Positions 21,954 through 37,973 of a stretch of 64,000 nucleotides of DNA are shown piece after piece; positions within the stretch are counted from its first letter, which is position 1; every line of letters starts with the position of its first letter. The notes below the pieces were generated by a model. That model was given only the letters and a program-made list of their open reading frames with translations, made no database searches and was not told the origin of the DNA. Origin of the DNA: Bacteroidota bacterium (GTDB taxonomy: Bacteria > Bacteroidota > Bacteroidia > Palsa-965); the NCBI GenBank assembly GCA_020402865.1, contig JADBYT010000008.1, positions 1 to 64,000 on the forward strand. Direction: 5' to 3'. Position numbers and translations under genes: made by a program.

Positions 21954-22268
21954 ATGAAGATTCTGGCTATCGACCGAATATTACCCACTGCTTCGGAAGA
22001 CAAAATCAGGGGAGTAGTTATACGTGAAGCATTACACGTGTGGATGCTTTATACAAAAGATATTGTGCGTGAAGTGTATTTCCGCAAAGACCGCCCCGGT
22101 ACGGTGCTGGTAATGGAATGCGCCGACGCCGCAGAAGCGAAAAAACTTCTGCAGACTTTCCCGCTTGTAAAAGCCGGTGTGATTGAATTTGATGTTATTC
22201 CTGTAGGCCATTTTGTGCCCTTCGGAACCCTGATTGACCGCTCGCATTTTGAAGACCGGATTGATTAA
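21954..22268 (+). CDS. small alpha/beta protein (YciI/muconolactone-isomerase-like size), unknown function
   Basis: A 104-residue soluble protein. The alternation of strands and helices (REVYFRKDRPGTVLVMECADAAEAKKLLQTFPLVKAGVIEF, described here by its segments at about 42-81) fits a ferredoxin-like dimeric alpha/beta barrel, the fold of YciI and related stress or catabolic proteins. No catalytic residues can be assigned. The ATG at 21954 follows a non-coding stretch of about 100 bp; no clear promoter. It is 97 bp upstream of a T9SS cargo gene. Confidence 0.65.
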   Translation: MKILAIDRILPTASEDKIRGVVIREALHVWMLYTKDIVREVYFRKDRPGTVLVMECADAAEAKKLLQTFPLVKAGVIEFDVIPVGHFVPFGTLIDRSHFEDRID

Positions 22269-22365
22269 CACATCAGTTGAACAGGTAAGAAAAACAAAAA
22301 GTGGCTCATGGCCGCTTTTTTCATTTATGTATATTCGTGTTATACAAATTCAAAACCACTGTTCA

Positions 22366-22959
22366 ATGAAAAAACTCTACGCATTCCTTCTTGCCCTTAC
22401 AGCCGGGGCAACACTGCATCTTAACGCCCAGTGCACCGTGGCTATTACCAGCCTTACCGTTAATGGCTTAACGGTAAACGTAACATCAACCGGTACTGGT
22501 GTTGCCACATTCCCTACCTATGGCTGGGATTGGGGTGATACACAAATTGGTGTCGGCCAGACACAATCGCACACTTACACAGCTGCAGGCACCTATAACA
22601 TCTGCGCATACTTTTTTGATTTAGCAGATACTGCAGGTTGCCAGGCCACTGCCTGCACAACCATTACACTTACAGCTGTAGGTGTGCCCGAAACAGCACA
22701 GCTGCTTACCACCATGAATGCATTCCCCAGCCCGTTTGTAAATGAGGCCAACATCAAATACACACTCTCGCAAAACAGCGATGTGGAAATTGAAGTATTC
22801 GACATTACCGGTAAGCGTGTAGCCACACTGCAAAACGGCGCCATGACCGCAGGCACCCACAACGTGGTTTGGGAGGCTACAGAAGTAAACGCAGGTGTTT
22901 ATTTTATTCGTCTCAAGGCCGGTGATGCAATTATTACCCGCCGCATTATTAAACAGTAA
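22366..22959 (+). CDS. secreted PKD-type protein with T9SS C-terminal sorting domain
   Basis: A 197-residue secreted protein. The start at 22366 gives the signal peptide MKKLYAFLLALTAGATLHLNAQ; the longer frame from 22234 overlaps the previous gene. Residues about 25-110 form one PKD/Ig-like domain (YGWDWGDTQIGVGQTQSHTY). The last 75 residues are a type A sorting domain: FPSPFVNEANIKYTL, VEIEVFDITGKRVATL, AGVYFIRLKAGD, ending RRIIKQ. In T9SS this domain takes the protein through the outer membrane and is usually removed on attachment to the surface. Very small for T9SS cargo, carrying a single domain. Confidence 0.85.
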   Translation: MKKLYAFLLALTAGATLHLNAQCTVAITSLTVNGLTVNVTSTGTGVATFPTYGWDWGDTQIGVGQTQSHTYTAAGTYNICAYFFDLADTAGCQATACTTITLTAVGVPETAQLLTTMNAFPSPFVNEANIKYTLSQNSDVEIEVFDITGKRVATLQNGAMTAGTHNVVWEATEVNAGVYFIRLKAGDAIITRRIIKQ

Positions 22960-23184: not shown

Positions 23185-24300
23185 TTACTGCTTCACGAAT
23201 TTGGTGGTGTACACCTGACCGTTTTCAGTAACCTGTACAAAGTACACTCCCGCTTCGAAATTTTCGAGGTTGTACACATTGTTTACACCTACATTCTGGC
23301 TGGCCGAAACTACCTGACCAAGTGCATTGATGATCTGAATTTGCATGGGTGCATTGTTGGTGCGGTTCACCTGAATGTTTACCATGTTGTTAGCAGGATT
23401 GGGATACACACCAACCATTGAAGTCTGGTTGGGATCATTACCAATGCTGTTGATGCCAGCAATATCATAAGAGAAAAGCAGGTTGGCAGCGCCCTGAGTT
23501 ACACCCACAAGTGCAAGCGGCGAAGCGTTTACATATACCCCACCAGCGAGGTCGCCGGGAGTACCCATGTCGGCAGTAACGTCATGCAGTACAGTTTGTG
23601 CACCGCTGGCAATGTTTACCTGAATGAGGTCAGCGAGGTCAGTTCCGCTTACACCGGTTTGGTGGAAAGCCCACAGGTAAGGACCGCCGGGCGAAGTGCC
23701 GTCGAATGCAAGACCGTATGTAGCTGTGAGACCATGCGATGAAGCAGGTACTGATGAAAGTACTGTACCGGTCATGCTAACCAGTGTAAAGTCGGTTGTC
23801 CAGGTACCCACCCAGAAGCCACCCTGACCGCTGTTTGCAGTAGGATCGTAAGTGCAGTAGCGAATGTTGGGTACTGTGGGCACGCTGATGGTTGAAGCAA
23901 GTGTTTGTGTGGCGGGGTCAATTTTGTAAATATTGGAGTTGTTAGCTCCGGCATATACAAAAGAACCGTCTGTAGTGAGTGAGCGAACACCGGTTACACC
24001 GGGTACGGTGAAGCTACCGGTAACTGTGCCGGTTGCAGAAACAACCCACATGGTATCGGAAGCCCAGCGAGACACCCAGAAGTTAAGGCCAACCGGAGTT
24101 ACACCGGCATTACCTGTACCAGCACCAGCAGCTGTAATGTCGTAGCTGAAAAGTATCTGCCAGGGGGTCTGAACGGTGGGAGGAGGATTGTTGTTACCTG
24201 TAGCCGGAGAAGTTTCGGCAGAAGGAACAGAAGGTGTTTGTGCAGCAAGTGTACCGAAAGCAAGCACAGCACCTGCAAGGAGGGTAAAGGTTTTAGTCAT
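23185..24300 (-). CDS. secreted beta-propeller-like protein with T9SS C-terminal sorting domain
   Basis: A 371-residue secreted protein. The start at 24300 gives a signal peptide (MTKTFTLLAGAVLAFGTLAAQ); an open stretch of 29 more codons upstream lacks protein character. Residues about 45-290 show repeated strand motifs with SFTVPGVTGVRSLTTDGSFVY and DPATQTLASTISVPTVPN, suggesting a beta-propeller or similar surface fold. The final 75 residues form a type A sorting domain (VYPNPANNMVNIQV, MQIQIINALGQVV, EAGVYFVQVTENG, ending TKFVKQ). It converges on the cargo gene at 22366 and is monocistronic. Confidence 0.85.
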   Translation of the reverse strand: MTKTFTLLAGAVLAFGTLAAQTPSVPSAETSPATGNNNPPPTVQTPWQILFSYDITAAGAGTGNAGVTPVGLNFWVSRWASDTMWVVSATGTVTGSFTVPGVTGVRSLTTDGSFVYAGANNSNIYKIDPATQTLASTISVPTVPNIRYCTYDPTANSGQGGFWVGTWTTDFTLVSMTGTVLSSVPASSHGLTATYGLAFDGTSPGGPYLWAFHQTGVSGTDLADLIQVNIASGAQTVLHDVTADMGTPGDLAGGVYVNASPLALVGVTQGAANLLFSYDIAGINSIGNDPNQTSMVGVYPNPANNMVNIQVNRTNNAPMQIQIINALGQVVSASQNVGVNNVYNLENFEAGVYFVQVTENGQVYTTKFVKQ

Positions 24301-24514
24301 GAGATTAGTTTGGTTAAGACGGATTAAATTTAGTGAAAAAAACTCTTCGCCATAAAAACACCCATCATATACTATATTTCCAAGCACCCGAACAAACTAT
24401 ACGTTCCGGCTCCTCCCTTAGCTTTTCACTGCTAACTATTCAGCCAGCACGCATTCACACCGGCATTAGATCTTGTATCGTTTATGAGTTCATGAAATAG
24501 GCGAATCGATAAAA

Positions 24515-29590: not shown

Positions 29591-31017
29591 GGCCTGGCGG
29601 AATTATAGGTTTTATGTAATGCGTTTTCGATGGGCTGCACAAGCTGATCGATATCGCCGGCTCCAAGTGTGAGCACTACGCCGCATGACGTGTTTACAGC
29701 AGCATCAATTGCATCGGCTTTTCCAGCCACGCGTACTTTGCTGCCTGCAAGGTTTGCCAATGCCGCCGAAGTAATTCCGGCAATCGGTTTTTCGCGTGCC
29801 GGATAAATATCAAGCAGCAACGCTTCATCGAGTGTAGCCAGCACATCGGCAAATTCCTGCATGAAATCGCGCGTGCGGCTGAAAAGATGTGGCTGAAAGA
29901 TGCCCATAATTTTCTGCTGCGGAAAAAGTTCGCGCGCGGAAGAAATGGCCGCAGCCAGCTCGGCCGGATGATGGCCGTAATCGTCGATATACACTTTCTG
30001 CTCGGAACGGAAGCGGTATTCAAACCGGCGGCCCACACCTTTAAACGAAGCAAGACCGAGACGCACACCATCTTCACCGGCTCCGGCAGCAATTGCCAGC
30101 GCCGCTGCCGCCACAGCATTCTCTACATTATGTCGTCCGGGCAAACCCAATGTAAGCTCTTCCCATTGCTTCCCATGATGATTAAGCGTAAACACATAGT
30201 ATCCGTTTTCGATGCGGATATCGGATGCGTAATAATTGCATGTGGTATTGCCGAGCGAATAAGTAGCTACACCAGACAAATCCCGGATGCCCAGCTTTTC
30301 AACTACCTCGGGCTTGGTTACCAGTAATCCTCCGGGCTGAATCTGCGAAGCAAATTTCCGGTAAGTGGCAAACATCTCTTCCGTGTTGCCGTAAATATCA
30401 AGATGATCGGCATCAACCGAAGTGATCACCGCATAAGCCGGATGCAACCATAAAAACGAGCGGTCGTACTCATCGGCTTCTGCCACCACTACATTGTCAA
30501 ACGCACTTGCACCGGCTTTGCCCAGCGTGCTGCCCAGCAAAAGATTTGTGCCGTAGTTGCCCGAAATTCCGCCAAGAAAAGCCGAACAGTCAATTCCGGC
30601 GCTGCGCATGAGATGGGCGGTAAGCGTGGTAGTGGTGGTTTTTCCGTGCGTACCCGCAATGGCAAACGTGCGTGTAGCTTCGGCGATGAGGCCAAGTACC
30701 TGTGCGCGTTTCATCATTACATACTGCTGCTCACGAAACCATTGCATCTCGGCATGATCGGCGGGAACGGCAGGCGTGTACACAACTACCGTTGTTTCTT
30801 TTGCGCCTGCATGCTTAAGCTCAAGCGGAATACGCTGTACCGATTCCTCGTAGTACACATCAATCCCTTCCTGCTGCAACATGCGGGTAAGCGCTGTTTC
30901 TGTTTTATCGTAGCCGCTCACACGTTTGCCCATCGCTTTAAAAAAACGGGCAAGCGCACTCATCCCGATACCACCGATACCGAGGAAATGAATATGTGTG
31001 CAGGCATTCAGGTTCAT
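29587..31017 (-). CDS. murC: UDP-N-acetylmuramate--L-alanine ligase MurC
   Basis: A 476-residue Mur ligase adding L-Ala to UDP-MurNAc. The N-terminus HIHFLGIGGIGMSALARF is the MurC nucleotide-binding motif; the ATP loop is AGTHGKTTTTTLTAHLM; the substrate region has the VVAEADEYDRSFL signature, and the C-terminal domain has YGHHPAELAA and FQPHLFSRT. Length fits (about 450-490). It overlaps murG by 4 nt and ftsQ by 4 nt. Confidence 0.97.
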   Translation of the reverse strand: MNLNACTHIHFLGIGGIGMSALARFFKAMGKRVSGYDKTETALTRMLQQEGIDVYYEESVQRIPLELKHAGAKETTVVVYTPAVPADHAEMQWFREQQYVMMKRAQVLGLIAEATRTFAIAGTHGKTTTTTLTAHLMRSAGIDCSAFLGGISGNYGTNLLLGSTLGKAGASAFDNVVVAEADEYDRSFLWLHPAYAVITSVDADHLDIYGNTEEMFATYRKFASQIQPGGLLVTKPEVVEKLGIRDLSGVATYSLGNTTCNYYASDIRIENGYYVFTLNHHGKQWEELTLGLPGRHNVENAVAAAALAIAAGAGEDGVRLGLASFKGVGRRFEYRFRSEQKVYIDDYGHHPAELAAAISSARELFPQQKIMGIFQPHLFSRTRDFMQEFADVLATLDEALLLDIYPAREKPIAGITSAALANLAGSKVRVAGKADAIDAAVNTSCGVVLTLGAGDIDQLVQPIENALHKTYNSARP

Positions 31018-32159
31018 GACTTGCGGCGGTTAACGAGCGACATTACTTCGGAAGCGATACGTTGTGCAGCATCGGGTATAGCCAATGCGGCAATATTTAC
31101 GGTAAACTGATGGCGACGCTCATCATCATTCACCAGTTTTATAAGTTCAGTGATTAAGTGCGTCTGGGCGTCGGCATCTTTTATAAGTAGTCCGGCACCT
31201 TTGTTTACAAGCGCCATTGCATTTTTGGTTTGGTGATCTTCGGCCACAAAGGGAGAAGGCACAAACACAACAGGTTTATTTACAATGGCAAGCTCGGAAA
31301 TAGAACTTGCTCCGGCGCGGGATACAACTACATCGGCAGCTGCATAGGCATAATCCATTTCGCGGATGAATGCGTGCGGAAGAATATTGCCGTTGAATTT
31401 TGCAGCAAGCTCTTTTGCTTTTGGCGCCCAGGCTTCACCCGTTTGCCAGAGCAGTTGTATGCCGGCTTCACTCAAACGCTGCAAACCCGCACCAATGGCT
31501 TCATTCACAGTACGCGCACCGAGACTTCCGCCAATTACCAGCACTACCGGGCGCTCGCCATCAAGCTTGAACATTTCGAGCGCACGTGTCCGTTTGCCAT
31601 CGAGTTTTAAAATATCCTGACGAACCGGGTTGCCCGTTACAAGGAGTTTTTCTTTCGGAAAAAATCGCTCCATGTGATCATATGCCACACAGATCCGATC
31701 CACACTTGAAGCAAGAATTTTACTTGTGATACCCGGGTACGAATTGCCTTCGTGTATAAGCGTAGGCACACCTGCACGCGCAGCCACACGCAACATTGGG
31801 CCGCTGGCGTAACCACCGGTGCCAATAACCGCATCAGGCTTAAAGCTGCGCAGTATGCGGCGAGCGCGCAAAATACTGCTGACTACTTTGAAGGGAAACG
31901 AAAGATTTTCGAGAGTAAAGCGGCGCTGCAAACCGCTTATCCAGAGACCTTCAATCTTGTAACCGGCAGCAGGTACTTTTTCCATTTCCATACGCCCCTT
32001 TGCACCTACAAACAAAAACTCGGCATCGGGGTACATCACTTTTAATGCATTGGCAATGGCAATAGCGGGAAAAATATGTCCGCCGGTTCCACCTCCACTG
32101 AGAATAAATTTAAGCGGTGGCAAGCTCACCTCCTTTCTCAGTTTCATCGGGCTGGGCAT
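31014..32159 (-). CDS. murG: lipid II synthase MurG (UDP-GlcNAc transferase)
   Basis: A 381-residue peripheral membrane GT28 glycosyltransferase that adds GlcNAc to lipid I to make lipid II. Glycine-rich loop 1 is FILSGGGTGGHIFPAIAIA (about 19-37), GTGGYASGP follows, and the C-terminal half has VIGGSLGA and the UDP-GlcNAc-binding SRAGASSISE. The start at 32159 has a near GGGAGA; the ATG at 32147 is equally possible. Either way the gene begins inside the end of ftsW (overlap 38-50 bp). Confidence 0.97.
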   Translation of the reverse strand: MPSPMKLRKEVSLPPLKFILSGGGTGGHIFPAIAIANALKVMYPDAEFLFVGAKGRMEMEKVPAAGYKIEGLWISGLQRRFTLENLSFPFKVVSSILRARRILRSFKPDAVIGTGGYASGPMLRVAARAGVPTLIHEGNSYPGITSKILASSVDRICVAYDHMERFFPKEKLLVTGNPVRQDILKLDGKRTRALEMFKLDGERPVVLVIGGSLGARTVNEAIGAGLQRLSEAGIQLLWQTGEAWAPKAKELAAKFNGNILPHAFIREMDYAYAAADVVVSRAGASSISELAIVNKPVVFVPSPFVAEDHQTKNAMALVNKGAGLLIKDADAQTHLITELIKLVNDDERRHQFTVNIAALAIPDAAQRIASEVMSLVNRRKS

Positions 32160-33300
32160 CTTCTCCCGTTTCAGTTTCGCGGCTTACGCTGAGAATTACC
32201 CCCACGGCAATGCTCGAAAAAAGGAGTGAGGTTCCGCCCATACTCAGAAATGGCAATGGCTGGCCGGTAACCGGGAAAAGATTAACGGCTACTGCCATAT
32301 TTATCAGTCCCTGAAACACCAGCTGAAACGATAGTCCGAAAGCCAGCAAGGCACCAAATGTTTTTTTGCTTTTTGAAGCCACTTTTATTCCCCTGAACAG
32401 AAGAATAAGATACAAAAGCACAATGCCCACACCGCCAATCACAGAACCGTATTCTTCAATTACAATGGCATAGATAAAATCAGAATACGGATGTGGCAGA
32501 AAATTTCGTTGTGTACTGTTGCCAGCTCCTTTACCAGTAACACCACCGGTGGCAATAGCTATTTTAGCCTGATTCGACTGAAAGTTTTTATCGTCGTTGG
32601 CGGCTTCGTTTCCGGTGACGAAATTTACAATTCGATTTTTCCATGTTTCCAAACGTGGCAGTGCTTTAGGGAACGCAGCTCCAAGAAGGATAAGCAACGC
32701 AAAACCAGCTGCTGCAATACCGGCCACTTTACCAATATGTTTAAGCGACACGCCGCCGATAAACATGAGTATGCAAGAGGTAGTAAACAGCAACGCCGAT
32801 GTGGAAAAGTTGGCCGGAAGAATAAGCAGGCAAACGATTGCCACAGGCGCCATAATTTTAATGAGTACTTTTTTGAAATCCTTGAGCTCGTTCTGATTCT
32901 GCGAAAGCACACGCCCCAGATACATGATAAGTGCCAGTTTGGCAAAGTCTGATGTTTGAAACGTAAGACCGGTGCCGGGAATGGCAATCCAGCGATCGGC
33001 ATTATTCAGGTTGGTACCGCCGGCCAGTGTGTAAAGCAGTAGCGGTAGTGAGAGAATCAGCAGAATTTGCGAGATGCGTGAGAAATAAGTGTAACGAATG
33101 CGATGCGTGAAATACATGAGTATCATGCCCAGCAAAATAATTTTGCCATGCTTAAACAGATAATATTCCGTATCACCTTCATGATGCTTGTAGGCAAGCG
33201 TTACAATTGAACTGTACACAGCCAGCAGCGAAAGCAATGAAAGCAATACGACGATCATCCAGATCACCTTATCGCCTTTGAAATAACTGAACAGATTCAT
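32110..33300 (-). CDS. ftsW: peptidoglycan polymerase FtsW (SEDS family)
   Basis: A 396-residue polytopic membrane protein with about ten helices. SEDS landmarks: ADRWIAIPGTGLTFQTSDFAKLALI near 105-130, and in the C-terminal part GNSTQRNFLPHPYSDFIYAIVIEEYG, then GQPLPFLSMGGTSLL. With FtsI it polymerises septal glycan from lipid II. The family residues following the P(H)xxSDF motif are intact. An acidic tail (ETGEDAQPDETEKGGE) is cytoplasmic. It is 26 bp downstream of the MurD-like fragment gene and overlaps murG. Confidence 0.96.
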   Translation of the reverse strand: MNLFSYFKGDKVIWMIVVLLSLLSLLAVYSSIVTLAYKHHEGDTEYYLFKHGKIILLGMILMYFTHRIRYTYFSRISQILLILSLPLLLYTLAGGTNLNNADRWIAIPGTGLTFQTSDFAKLALIMYLGRVLSQNQNELKDFKKVLIKIMAPVAIVCLLILPANFSTSALLFTTSCILMFIGGVSLKHIGKVAGIAAAGFALLILLGAAFPKALPRLETWKNRIVNFVTGNEAANDDKNFQSNQAKIAIATGGVTGKGAGNSTQRNFLPHPYSDFIYAIVIEEYGSVIGGVGIVLLYLILLFRGIKVASKSKKTFGALLAFGLSFQLVFQGLINMAVAVNLFPVTGQPLPFLSMGGTSLLFSSIAVGVILSVSRETETGEDAQPDETEKGGELATA

Positions 33301-33326: not shown

Positions 33327-33842
33327 TTAACTAAACTTTACCTGAACGGTATCCCGGAAACGGTTGCCACGATTTTTATAATTATCAAACGGATCGTAGC
33401 TGGGGCATCCGGGTGCGAAAAGCACTGTTTTTACATCGCCACGTGCAAGAATGGCGGCGTTATCCACAGCATCTTTCAAATCGGCAGCCTGAATAACCAT
33501 GGGTACTGCATCGGCAAATGCCTTGAAATATTTCCATGGTGTAGAGCCGAGGCAAATCACGGCACTTACTTTTTCAGCGGCAAGCGAAGTAAGTTTATCG
33601 TGATCTTCAGCACGGTCAATTCCGCCCATTATCAATACCACATTGCCCGGCACATCGCGCAGCGCCATCCATACCAGATCAACACTCGTAGCCATTGAGT
33701 GGTTAATCCAGTTTACGCCCTGATGTTCGGTTATTACTTCGAGGTGATGGGCGTTGTCGCCCTGCGCTTTCATGCGCATGCGGAGCATTTCCTCGTGCAG
33801 CGTAATATCCTGCGGTTTGATTTTATTTTCGTGAGTTGCCAT
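33327..33842 (-). CDS. stand-alone MurD C-terminal-domain-like protein (probable pseudo-ligase)
   Basis: A 171-residue protein whose residues about 32-165 align end to end with the C-terminal domain (about 309-441) of the MurD encoded just upstream: HHLEVI versus HRLEFV, WINHSMATS versus FINDSKATN, IMGGIDRAED versus IVGGVDKGND, VICLGS versus IVCLGT, and SYDPFDNYKNRG versus SFDLFENYEDRG. The N-terminal and ATPase domains of a Mur ligase are absent. In the DSKATN motif Asp becomes His48, Lys becomes Met50 and Asn becomes Ser53, so ligase-type chemistry is not expected. The ATG at 33842 is preferred to a GTG two codons earlier. It lies 21 bp after murD and 26 bp before ftsW. Role unknown; perhaps binding or regulation. 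Confidence 0.85.
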   Translation of the reverse strand: MATHENKIKPQDITLHEEMLRMRMKAQGDNAHHLEVITEHQGVNWINHSMATSVDLVWMALRDVPGNVVLIMGGIDRAEDHDKLTSLAAEKVSAVICLGSTPWKYFKAFADAVPMVIQAADLKDAVDNAAILARGDVKTVLFAPGCPSYDPFDNYKNRGNRFRDTVQVKFS

Positions 33843-33863
33843 TTGCACGGAAACAGTTAAAGA

Positions 33864-35201
33864 TTAGAGTGCGCGCACCGCAGCTTTAAACTGGCGGCCA
33901 CGGTCTTCGTAGTTCTCAAACAGATCGAAGCTGGCGCAGGCGGGCGAAAGAAGTACGGTATCGCCTTTTCCGGCCAAACGATACGAAAGCGCCACAGCTT
34001 CCTGCGCCGAACCGGCCTCCACAATGTTTTCCACCCGGCCCTGAAATGCCGCAAGAATTTTACTGTTGTCAGTTCCGAGACACACAATGGCTTTCACCTT
34101 TGCCTGTACCAGTTCAAACAACGCACTGTAATCGTTACCCTTATCCACACCGCCAACAATCCACACCACCGGCGTATTCATGCTTTCGAGTGCATACCAC
34201 GTAGAGTTTACATTGGTCGCTTTCGAATCATTGATAAAGTCGATATTGTTGATGCGCGATACAAATTCGAGTCGGTGTTCAACACTCTGAAAGTCGGAAA
34301 GGCTTTCACGGATGGCTTCTTTACGAACTTCCAGCAGGCGGGATGCGATTCCGCCGGCCATCGAGTTGTAAACGTTGTGCTTGCCTTGCAACGCGAGTTC
34401 TTCGATGGTCATAGTAAATTGGTTTTTATGGATGTTAAAAATGATTTCATTGTGGTGTAACCAGGCTCCCTCCTGCTCTAACTGCTGTTTGATACTGAAG
34501 GGATATTTTTTTGCATTGATCGGATACTTGTGTATTTCATTCAGTGTCACTTCATCGTCGGCACAATACACAAAAGCATCTTCGGGTCGCTGATTCTGCG
34601 CTATGCGGAACTTTGCGGCGGCATATTTTTCAAGCTGGTATTCGTATCGGTCGAGATGATCAGGGGTAATATTGAGCAGCACGGCGATGTCGGCACGGAA
34701 GTCGTACATATCATCCAACTGAAAGCTGCTCAGTTCAAGCACATACACCTCATGCCCGCCCTCATACACGAGCTTGGCGAAACTGTGTCCTACGTTTCCA
34801 CCCAATGCCGCATTCACACCGGCCTTGGTGAGAATATGATGCGTAAGTGTGGATGTGGTAGTTTTACCATTGCTTCCTGTAATACAAACCGTTTTCGCAT
34901 TCGTGTAACGACCGGCAAACTCGATTTCCGAAATCACCGGAATACCATTTGCACGGAGCTGCTTCACCAGCGGCACGGTTCCGGGAATGCCCGGACTCTT
35001 AATTACCTCATCGGCATTAAGTACCTGATTTTCGGTGTGTTGTTTCTCTTCCCAGCGAATATCATGTTGTGAAAGAACGTCCTTGTATTTCTGGCTTATC
35101 GGCCCTTTGTCGGAAACAAATACGTCATACCCCTTCTGTTGTGCCAGAAGAGCAGCGCCTGTTCCGCTTTCGCCTGCGCCAAGTATGACCATTCGTTTCA
35201 T
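33864..35201 (-). CDS. murD: UDP-N-acetylmuramoylalanine--D-glutamate ligase MurD
   Basis: A 445-residue Mur ligase adding D-Glu to UDP-MurNAc-L-Ala. N-terminal dinucleotide-like domain (VILGAGESGTGAALLA), ATP loop ITGSNGKTTTSTLT at 107-120, ELSSFQLD at 156-163, NITPDHLDRY at 177-186, and the C-terminal domain with DSKATN at 325-330 and SFDLFENYEDRG. The first ATG is at 35201; the TTG one codon earlier is less likely. It lies between mraY and the MurD-like fragment gene. Confidence 0.97.
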   Translation of the reverse strand: MKRMVILGAGESGTGAALLAQQKGYDVFVSDKGPISQKYKDVLSQHDIRWEEKQHTENQVLNADEVIKSPGIPGTVPLVKQLRANGIPVISEIEFAGRYTNAKTVCITGSNGKTTTSTLTHHILTKAGVNAALGGNVGHSFAKLVYEGGHEVYVLELSSFQLDDMYDFRADIAVLLNITPDHLDRYEYQLEKYAAAKFRIAQNQRPEDAFVYCADDEVTLNEIHKYPINAKKYPFSIKQQLEQEGAWLHHNEIIFNIHKNQFTMTIEELALQGKHNVYNSMAGGIASRLLEVRKEAIRESLSDFQSVEHRLEFVSRINNIDFINDSKATNVNSTWYALESMNTPVVWIVGGVDKGNDYSALFELVQAKVKAIVCLGTDNSKILAAFQGRVENIVEAGSAQEAVALSYRLAGKGDTVLLSPACASFDLFENYEDRGRQFKAAVRAL

Positions 35202-35230
35202 CAAAACTTTTATTTAATTATTTTATTTAT

Positions 35231-36511
35231 TTAGCGAAGCTTAAGTGTGGCAATGGCAACAATACCAAGCAGTAATCCCACAATCCAGAACCGCGTAACA
35301 ATCTTTGATTCGTGAAACCCTTTTTTCTGGTAATGATGGTGCAGCGGCGACATGAGGAACAAGCGGTTAGCCTTCGCATAATCGAGTCCGTATTTGCGCT
35401 TGCGGTATTTAAACACCGCCACCTGAAGCACCACTGAAAGATTTTCTACCAGAAAAATTCCGCACACAATCGGAATCAGCATCTCTTTGCGAATGGCTAT
35501 GGCAAACGTGGCAATGATGCCACCCAAGGCCAGACTTCCGGTATCGCCCATAAACACCTGCGCCGGATAGGCATTGTACCAGAGGAAACCAATGCAGGCT
35601 CCCACAAATGCACCTATGAAGATTACAAGTTCACCGGTGTCGGGGATGTACATAATGTTGAGGTAATCGGCAAAAATGGTGTTACCCGATACGTAAGCCA
35701 GAATCCCCAACACAACTCCGATAATGGCCGAAGTTCCAGCTGCAAGCCCGTCTATACCATCCGTTACGTTAGCACCGTTTGACACTGCAGTAATAATGAA
35801 TATCACAATAAGCACAAACAATATCCAGCCGTACTGCCGGGCGGCATCACCAAACACACCCAGAATATCGTTGTAATCAAACTCATTGTTTTTTACAAAA
35901 GGAATAGTGGTAGTGAGTGATTTGGTTTCGGTTTTCGAATATTCGGGGAAACCAAGATCGGCGCATCCATCATCAAGCTTTCCGGGATCGCTGGTAAGCG
36001 AAAGCATTTGCTTGTTGTCTGTCGAAATTTTTTCGCGCACCACAACAGCATCACTGAAGTAAAGCGTAAGCCCAACAATAAGTCCGAGACCAATCTGTCC
36101 CATTACCTTGAACTTGCCGTGCAATCCTTTTTTATCTTTTTTGAATACCTTGATATAATCATCAATAAAACCAATTGCACCCAACCAGATTGTGGTAATG
36201 AGCATGAGAATGATATACACATTACTAAGTTTGGCAAACAGCAGTGTAGGAATCACAATAGCCGAAAGAATAATGAGTCCGCCCATTGTGGGAGTCCCTT
36301 GTTTTTCGTTCTGTCCCTGCAAACCGAGATCGCGAATAATTTCGCCCACCTGCTTTTTCTGCAGCAAACGAATAAGCCGTTTACCGAAAAGCACAGTAAT
36401 AATAAGCGAGGTTATCACTGACATGGCCGCACGGAACGAGATGTATTTGAATACACCCGCACCCGGAAAATCAAAACCCTGGTTCAACCAGTCGAAGAGA
36501 TAGTACAGCAT
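35231..36511 (-). CDS. mraY: phospho-N-acetylmuramoyl-pentapeptide transferase MraY
   Basis: A 426-residue polytopic membrane enzyme making lipid I. Catalytic elements: [12 protein letters not shown] (Asp-Asp), [11 protein letters not shown] (nucleophile region), and [10 protein letters not shown] (His cluster). A hydrophilic insert of about 70 residues between helices ([22 protein letters not shown] to FDYNDI) is typical of Bacteroidota MraY and larger than in E. coli (360 residues). The start at 36511 gives the family MLYYLFDWL opening and begins 1 nt after the murE stop; the longer frame would overlap murE. Confidence 0.96.
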
Positions 36512-36512
36512 G

Positions 36513-37973
36513 TCAGTCTTCGGTATTAAGTGTTTCTTTAAGTATGGCCATGTCGTCAAAAGGATGTTTCACCCCGTTGATTTCCTGGTATTTTTCGTGT
36601 CCTTTACCCGCCACCAGAATAATGTCGCCGGGCTTTGCCAGTGCCACTGCAGTACGTATGGCTTCACGGCGGTCTATGATGGAAAGCGTGCTGCGCTGGT
36701 ATTGAATTTCCACGCCCTGTTGCATTTCGGTCAGAATTGCGGCCGGATCTTCAGTGCGGGGATTATCGGAAGTGAGCAGTACACGGTCGCTGTTTTCGCA
36801 GGCAATACGTGCCATAACCGGACGCTTTGCGCGGTCTCTGTCGCCACCGCAACCAACCACTGTAATTACCTGTTCGTTTCCGGTGCGGATGTCGGCAATG
36901 GTTTTAAGCACATTGAGCAGTGCGTCTGGCGTGTGTGCATAATCTACAATGCCGGTAATACCATTGTTGCTGCGCACATACTGGAAGCGGCCCTCAACGG
37001 GGCCAAGAGTACTGAGCGTGGTGAGCGTGTGCATTTTGTCTTTGCCCAGCAACATGGCTGTGGCATACACCGCCGTGAGGTTGTAAGCATTAAAACTGCC
37101 GATGAGTTTGCTCCAGAACTCGGTGCTGTCCATGCTGAGCTGCAAACCGGAGAACTGATTCTCAATTACACGGCATTTGAAATCGGCTACATTTTTTACA
37201 GAATAGCTGCGCTTAAGTGCACGTGTGTTCTGCACCATTACCGCACCGTTCACATCGTCGCGGTTCACAAGTGCAAACGCATCGGAGGGCAGCATATCAA
37301 ACAACATTTTCTTAGCCTTGATGTAAGCATCAAATGTTTTATGATAATCGAGGTGATCGTGTGTGATGTTGGTAAATACACCACCGGCAAACTGAATACC
37401 AGCAACACGTCCCTGCACAAGCGCATGTGAGCTTACTTCCATAAATGCATACTTACATCCGGCATCCACCATACGGCGGAGCAGCGCATTAAGCGTAATG
37501 GCATCAGGTGTGGTATGCGTGGATGGAATTTCCTCGTTGTTAATCATGTTGGCCACGGTGGTAAGCATACCAGCCTTGTAGCCAAGTGCGCGGAAAAGGC
37601 GGAACAATAAAGTAACCGTGGTTGTTTTCCCGTTGGTGCCGGTTACACCAATGAGCTTAAGCTGCGACGAAGGCTGGTCGTAAAAATTACCGGCAATTAT
37701 GCCCAGCGCCTGCGCACTGTCGGCCACCTTTACATAGGTAATTTTCGGATTTATTTCTTCGGGAAGTTCTTCGCACACAATTGCAGCAGCCCCCGAAGCA
37801 ATAGCCTTTTCAATAAAGCCATGCCCATCGGCCTGCGTTCCGCGAACGGCCACAAAAAGTCCGTCCTTTTCCACAAGACGCGAATCAAAAGCCAATGAGG
37901 TGATTGCCACGTTGGTTGATCCCGTTACTTCGAGCAGACTGGCTTTATAGAGTATGTCGCGGAGCAGTTTCAT
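36513..37973 (-). CDS. murE: UDP-MurNAc-tripeptide synthetase MurE (meso-DAP type)
   Basis: A 486-residue Mur ligase adding the third residue of the stem peptide. ATP loop [18 protein letters not shown], carbamylated-lysine region [12 protein letters not shown], and substrate motif [14 protein letters not shown] is the signature for meso-diaminopimelate (Lys-type enzymes have DNPA or similar), so this organism should have DAP-type peptidoglycan. VAGKGHE near the C-terminus is conserved. Its stop is separated from the mraY start by one base, and its start overlaps the ftsI end by 4 nt. Confidence 0.97.

Follow-up and report, generated by a model that had tools for sequence, protein, structure and literature searches.

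The dcw cluster is among the best studied of bacterial gene clusters, and the locus described here raises the question of why such a cluster should carry, between murD and ftsW, a separate gene for the C-terminal domain of MurD alone. A stand-alone MurD C-terminal domain was not described in the literature searched, which left most subscription journals outside, and a survey of dcw gene content lists 17 genes without this one among them (PMC8871954). The window, that is, the whole stretch of 64,000 nucleotides that was analysed, carries a full dcw cluster, encoded on the minus strand in the order mraZ, rsmH, an ftsL-like gene, ftsI, murE, mraY, murD, the additional gene, for which we propose the name murDc, ftsW, murG, murC, ftsQ, ftsA and ftsZ. 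Some of these names were assigned by BLAST comparison and the remainder by reading the translations. The features considered below are listed here, with residue positions in E. coli MurD numbering.

35231..36559, minus strand: mraY, upstream of murD in the dcw cluster
33864..35204, minus strand: murD, full length, its own C-domain bearing the complete ligand-contact set
33327..33842, minus strand: murDc, stand-alone MurD C-terminal domain of 171 aa
33684..33701, minus strand: HSMATS, residues 48–53 of murDc, counterpart of MurD DSKATN (Asp317 to His, Lys319 to Met)
33615..33626, minus strand: GGID, followed by Arg where MurD has Lys348
33366..33407, minus strand: CPSYDPFDNYKNRG, corresponding to the loop of MurD that binds D-Glu (CASFDLFENYEDRG), with Ser415 and the Tyr at 422 kept
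32110..33300, minus strand: ftsW, directly downstream of murDc
31014..32159, minus strand: murG, downstream of ftsW

The murDc frame runs from an ATG at 33842 to a stop codon at 33327–33329 (an alternative GTG start at 33848 would give 173 aa) and is separated by 21 bp from murD and by 26 bp from ftsW. At the GC content of the window, a 171-codon open frame has a chance probability of 1.7e-4, and homology leaves no doubt that the predicted gene is real. An earlier reading of the sequence alone had described an open frame in a sound murD-murDc-ftsW layout that holds nothing but a MurD C-domain, and the spacing, the coordinates and the Pfam and TIGR01087 matches given below all agree with that description. 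A fusion of MurD and murDc by stop read-through was considered and rejected: the murD stop and the murDc start share a frame at 33840–33866 (TAA, seven sense codons, ATG), which is continuous through the TAA in the window but not in relatives, and in several of these the murD and murDc frames overlap and differ, so read-through is no conserved feature. A promoter scan gave nothing above chance level. By the dcw region, the window also encodes two predicted secreted proteins (22234–22959, plus strand, and 23185–24387, minus strand) with sorting-domain-like tails, presumably of the type IX secretion kind.

The Pfam domain Mur_ligase_C (PF02875) matches residues 34–144 of murDc with 31.9 bits (E 2.7e-7), above the gathering cut-off of 28.4 bits, which is also passed by three of the four dcw relatives of murDc that were scored. 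It is the sole Pfam match, with neither the N-terminal UMA domain nor the ATPase middle domain detected, so that one of the three domains of full-length ligases here makes up the whole protein. The MurD model TIGR01087 is matched in its C-terminal third only (profile positions 294–440), with 106.6 bits; as this is below the cut-off of 211.95 bits, murDc is not assigned to MurD itself. Identity to the neighbouring MurD is 33–35%. The AlphaFold2 model (pLDDT 89, pTM 0.81) matches MurD C-domains with Z of about 25 over 140 residues, and Foldseek relates it to MurD with E 2.5e-13, whereas families beyond MurD (MurT, MurE, FolC and others) reach Z of 13.7 at most; murDc is thus predicted to have the fold of a MurD C-domain. 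The homologue search by profile and structure prediction that had been suggested along with the sequence-only reading led to MurD by both routes.

Among characterized proteins, MurD (PDB 7sir, 7u35, 1uag and others) shares with murDc the C-terminal fold, sequence homology and an adjacent gene; unlike MurD, murDc has no UMA-binding or ATPase domain and its ligand contacts are degraded, so it should be unable to ligate alone. MurT, of the lipid II amidotransferase MurT/GatD, also acts on the lipid II line and shares the Mur-ligase C-domain fold (Z 13.7), but differs from murDc in its ATP-binding middle domain and in having GatD as a partner; murDc gives no match to the MurT family models. That a homologue of a Mur ligase can take on a new role within a different complex is shown by the plant MurE-like protein PAP11 (PMC9434261), which is a full-length MurE-like protein in the plastid transcription complex (plastid RNA polymerase) and not an orthologue of murDc.

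The HSMATS motif replaces Asp317 and Lys319, which we take to be substrate or nucleotide contacts of E. coli MurD. The D-Glu contacts of that enzyme are Thr321, Ser415, position 422 and Lys348 (PMC3527612), and Arg302 is also among its contact positions (PMC3527612, PMC4816537). In the window murDc, the positions Arg302, Asp317, Lys319, Thr321, Lys348 and Ser415 are occupied by His, His, Met, Thr, Arg and Ser, so that Arg302 and Lys348 are substituted as well, while Thr321, Ser415, the Tyr at 422, Arg425 and Gly426 are retained. All six of these positions are intact in 80 of 82 MurD rows of the alignment versus 6 of 63 murDc rows, and the six complete rows all come from a single family, f12; in every other sampled family, murDc lacks at least one ligand-contacting residue. 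Which residues are lost varies. In the window's genus, Arg302, Asp317 and Lys319 are gone and the D-Glu side is kept, with Arg at 348 in most copies and a nearly invariant FDNYKNRG loop. Families f4, f10, f25, f32, f42, f46 and others mostly retain Arg302, Asp317 and Lys319 and have lost Lys348, a position held by Asp, Glu, Ser, Asn or Tyr in most families other than the window's. Retention of Arg302 and a basic residue at 348 are anticorrelated in this table, which contains few independent changes. The substituted motif on which the sequence-only reading rested is indeed present, but it is confined to the window's genus: the sister genus has NNSMAT and f13 has NHSIAT, and in most other families the Asp and Ser of DSKATN, and often the Lys, are retained. 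HSMATS is therefore not the defining trait of murDc and, given this variation by lineage, is one local form of a general relaxation. To judge from its sequence, murDc is no ordinary enzyme, as it has no UMA or ATPase domain and mostly degraded contacts.

The order to which the host belongs comprises one family with 12 genomes, of which 11 could be scored. All 11 carry murDc beside murD, and the unmatched twelfth genome is 59% complete; ORF maps of these loci read mraY-murD-murDc-ftsW-murG. Sampling was extended to 59 relatives and then to 396 genomes across the class Bacteroidia, where a second match beside murD was found in about 80 genomes and in 19 of 78 family codes; its position was inspected in each of the 19 families, in part of the genomes. 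The order murD-murDc-ftsW-murG recurs at the dcw loci read in other families, and four public Bacteroidota MAGs share murD-murDc-ftsW. Two of the 19 families depart from this arrangement, f42 with a murDc-ftsW pair apart from murD and f73 with murD missing. Outside the class, nearly all of about 148 genomes of the phylum have one match, with no clear case of murDc; two have two matches each, with weak best scores. Homologues are thus widespread outside the strain, and the suspicion that the gene might be unique to it can be set aside. We propose to delimit the orthologue group as stand-alone C-domains encoded directly upstream of ftsW, a description that fits the murDc of the window. In f21, seven of 17 genomes of one genus have murDc and the others are without it, and the three spacers read from non-carriers contain no remnant of the gene; such clean loss within a genus indicates that murDc is useful but dispensable rather than generally essential. 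No trait was found that its distribution tracks.

Several candidates were discarded. An apparent MurDc-FtsW fusion in G062 (612-aa open frame) is a separate 213-aa ORF followed by ftsW; second matches in G093, G162, G228, G016, G180, G223 and G098 are weak and fall on ordinary longer Mur-ligase-like frames; and G296 and G221 appear to have murD split over contig ends. There are also supernumerary copies. One genome of f74 (G291, L087) carries murDc twice in tandem between murD and ftsW, and extra stand-alone MurD C-domains lie outside the dcw cluster in f46, f4, f42 and f9 (L061, L062, L063, L073, L101), those of f4 and f46 adjoining a gene that reads as aldehyde dehydrogenase.

Where synonymous sites are unsaturated, dN/dS of murDc is 0.03–0.04 in f4, 0.04–0.07 in f10, 0.015–0.10 in f12 and 0.07–0.14 in f21; divergent pairs in f9 give 0.27–0.40. 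Computable ratios in the window's genus are 0.10–0.26 for murDc versus 0.03–0.10 for the MurD C-domain, and synonymous sites there are near saturation, yet 43–59% of murDc residues are identical. Codon comparison thus demonstrates purifying selection on murDc. The sequence-only reading had named a dN/dS near 1 and frameshifts or stops in relatives as signs of a decaying pseudogene; the ratios lie well below 1 and the frames are open, which, together with conserved synteny, rules out a pseudogene. In most families murDc evolves faster than the MurD C-domain. This is reversed in f12, where one genome pair has murDc 95% identical versus 77% for the MurD C-domain. The neighbouring MurD C-domain in f12 (L049, L076, L108–L110) is itself divergent, and a shift of constraint or a replacement of murD is possible.

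A quick tree of MurD C-domains and murDc separates the two labels by one change and a careful tree by two, compared with a mean of 38.6–46.6 changes expected for shuffled labels on both trees. In the careful tree, all 50 dcw copies of murDc cluster together and are separate from every MurD C-domain; the non-dcw extra copy of f9 (L073) falls outside, although a tree forcing all 51 copies together is not rejected (AU p 0.48). These sequence comparisons suggest that murDc most likely arose once, when part of murD was duplicated early in the history of the class Bacteroidia, and was then lost many times. Repeated independent partial duplications in different families, which we think unlikely, would suit the patchy distribution, the position of L073 and the low support for a single split (20 in one tree; present in 17% of bootstrap trees, one extra non-dcw copy included), given that fast branches may attract one another; but no murDc copy nests with its own MurD, the dcw copies group together, and the nearest MurD is usually not that of the same genome, which by identity to murDc has a median rank of 29.5 of 82. 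Given the low branch support and the long murDc branches, a single origin is the best reading rather than proof. Of the tandem partial duplication of murD proposed earlier, the partial duplication stands; the trees make it ancient, predating many Bacteroidia families, and not a recent, local event.

In two families, f34 (g36, g180, g111 and probably g134; L031, L114, L116, L118, L119, L137, L138) and f20 (g87, g183, g154, g104, g22; L140–L145), the spacer between murD and ftsW contains an open frame of about 100–165 residues without any MurD motif, and the spacer proteins scanned have no Pfam match above the cut-off. Profile comparison nevertheless relates both to murDc (P 2.4e-6 for f34 and 5.2e-6 for f20, collinear over 93–114 columns), with 0 of 150 column shuffles scoring as high in either case. 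The two profiles do not match one another directly, each matching the murDc profile only. A model of the f20 protein (pLDDT 80, six input sequences) preserves the succession of helices and strands, with MurD as the top-scoring known structure (Z 12.2) and Mur ligases or close kin making up all of the 50 best matches. The f20 protein has a motif of its own, HGKLWGMDVFSW. Retention of the place, the frame and, in f20, the predicted fold after all MurD motifs have gone argues for a binding role.

Rearranged loci bear on the partner of the gene. In G263 (f73), the canonical murD is gone from the cluster, where mraY-murDc-ftsW remains, and the only other match is an 876-aa MurL-like epimerase-MurD fusion outside the dcw cluster.

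L089:2267-4894, minus strand: MurL-MurD fusion of G263
L088:1684-2223, plus strand: murDc-like gene of G263

The murDc of this genome has diverged strongly and may instead be what is left of the missing murD. In G052 (f42; L057, L058), mraY-murD is on one contig and murDc-ftsW on another, each among unrelated genes, those next to murDc-ftsW reading as an Hpt-domain protein and ferritin. The dcw cluster is here split exactly between murD and murDc, leaving murDc and ftsW as a pair that stays together. In these two cases, murDc stays with the ftsW side rather than with murD.

For a gene with such conservation and such loss of catalytic residues, the role that we infer is that of a non-enzymatic helper of cell-wall precursor synthesis, which murDc probably is; more specific roles as regulator, scaffold or sensor are hypotheses. 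The proposal that it is a non-catalytic pseudo-ligase domain with an adaptor or regulatory function in the lipid II line from MurD to FtsW has, in our estimate, about an even chance of being right. Such a protein would work by binding and not by catalysis, its C-domain surface docking on MurD or on a neighbour (MurG, FtsW or other Mur ligases) and thereby tuning or localising precursor supply near FtsW. The gene neighbourhood weakly suggests a physical partnership; an association of Mur ligases with MurG has been reported, in which MurG and MreB serve as scaffolds (PMC4929429). The C-domain of MurD closes over the nucleotide by swinging on Arg302 (PMC4816537). The lineage of the window has lost the ATP-closing half (Arg302, Asp317, Lys319) and kept the half that faces D-Glu (Thr321, Arg for Lys348, Ser415 and the Tyr at 422), so that ligand-gated docking is possible there, and a free C-domain without the Arg302 handle could bind the surfaces used by the enzyme's own C-domain, or else neighbours that scaffold the Mur ligases, MurG among them.

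The same retained half, with its nearly invariant loop, would also befit a sensor that binds D-Glu, UDP-MurNAc-L-Ala-D-Glu or a related precursor and reports the pool to MurD, MurG or FtsW. We regard this as improbable, since Lys348 is replaced in most other families and the whole loop is lost in f20 and f34, and a role based on the pocket could therefore hold only in part of the murDc family. Still more doubtful is a C-domain acting in trans, which would dock on MurD, or on another Mur ligase, at the ATP-loaded N-terminal and middle domains and replace, or compete with, the resident C-domain. Joint retention of Arg302, Asp317 and Lys319 in several families would fit it, as would the complete contact set and the stronger conservation of murDc in f12, where mainly it is conceivable; but the MurD of carriers, including f12, has a complete C-domain of its own, no murDc outside f12 has the full set, all motifs are gone in f20 and f34, and G263 lacks a canonical murD beside murDc. 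A tolerated relic, a second copy of the murD 3' end that persists because deletions in an essential operon risk polar effects, could explain fast evolution, repeated loss, dispensability within genera and loss of the catalytic motif, but is very improbable and already largely contradicted by dN/dS of 0.02–0.14 in close pairs, the absence of stop codons at synonymous saturation, a predicted fold that survives the loss of all motifs, invariant positions within the window's genus and the clean absence from some f21 relatives.

Returning to the pseudo-ligase domain, we lean slightly towards regarding murDc as a class-specific dcw gene of Bacteroidia, whose product would regulate or organise the MurD-FtsW step of lipid II synthesis and would have drifted past the family models in some families. 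Across these families, murDc appears to display stages in the passage of an enzyme domain to a non-enzyme, from complete contacts in f12 to the loss of all motifs with the predicted fold kept in f20. So far seen only in Bacteroidia, it would add a component of cell-wall synthesis in a large bacterial group.
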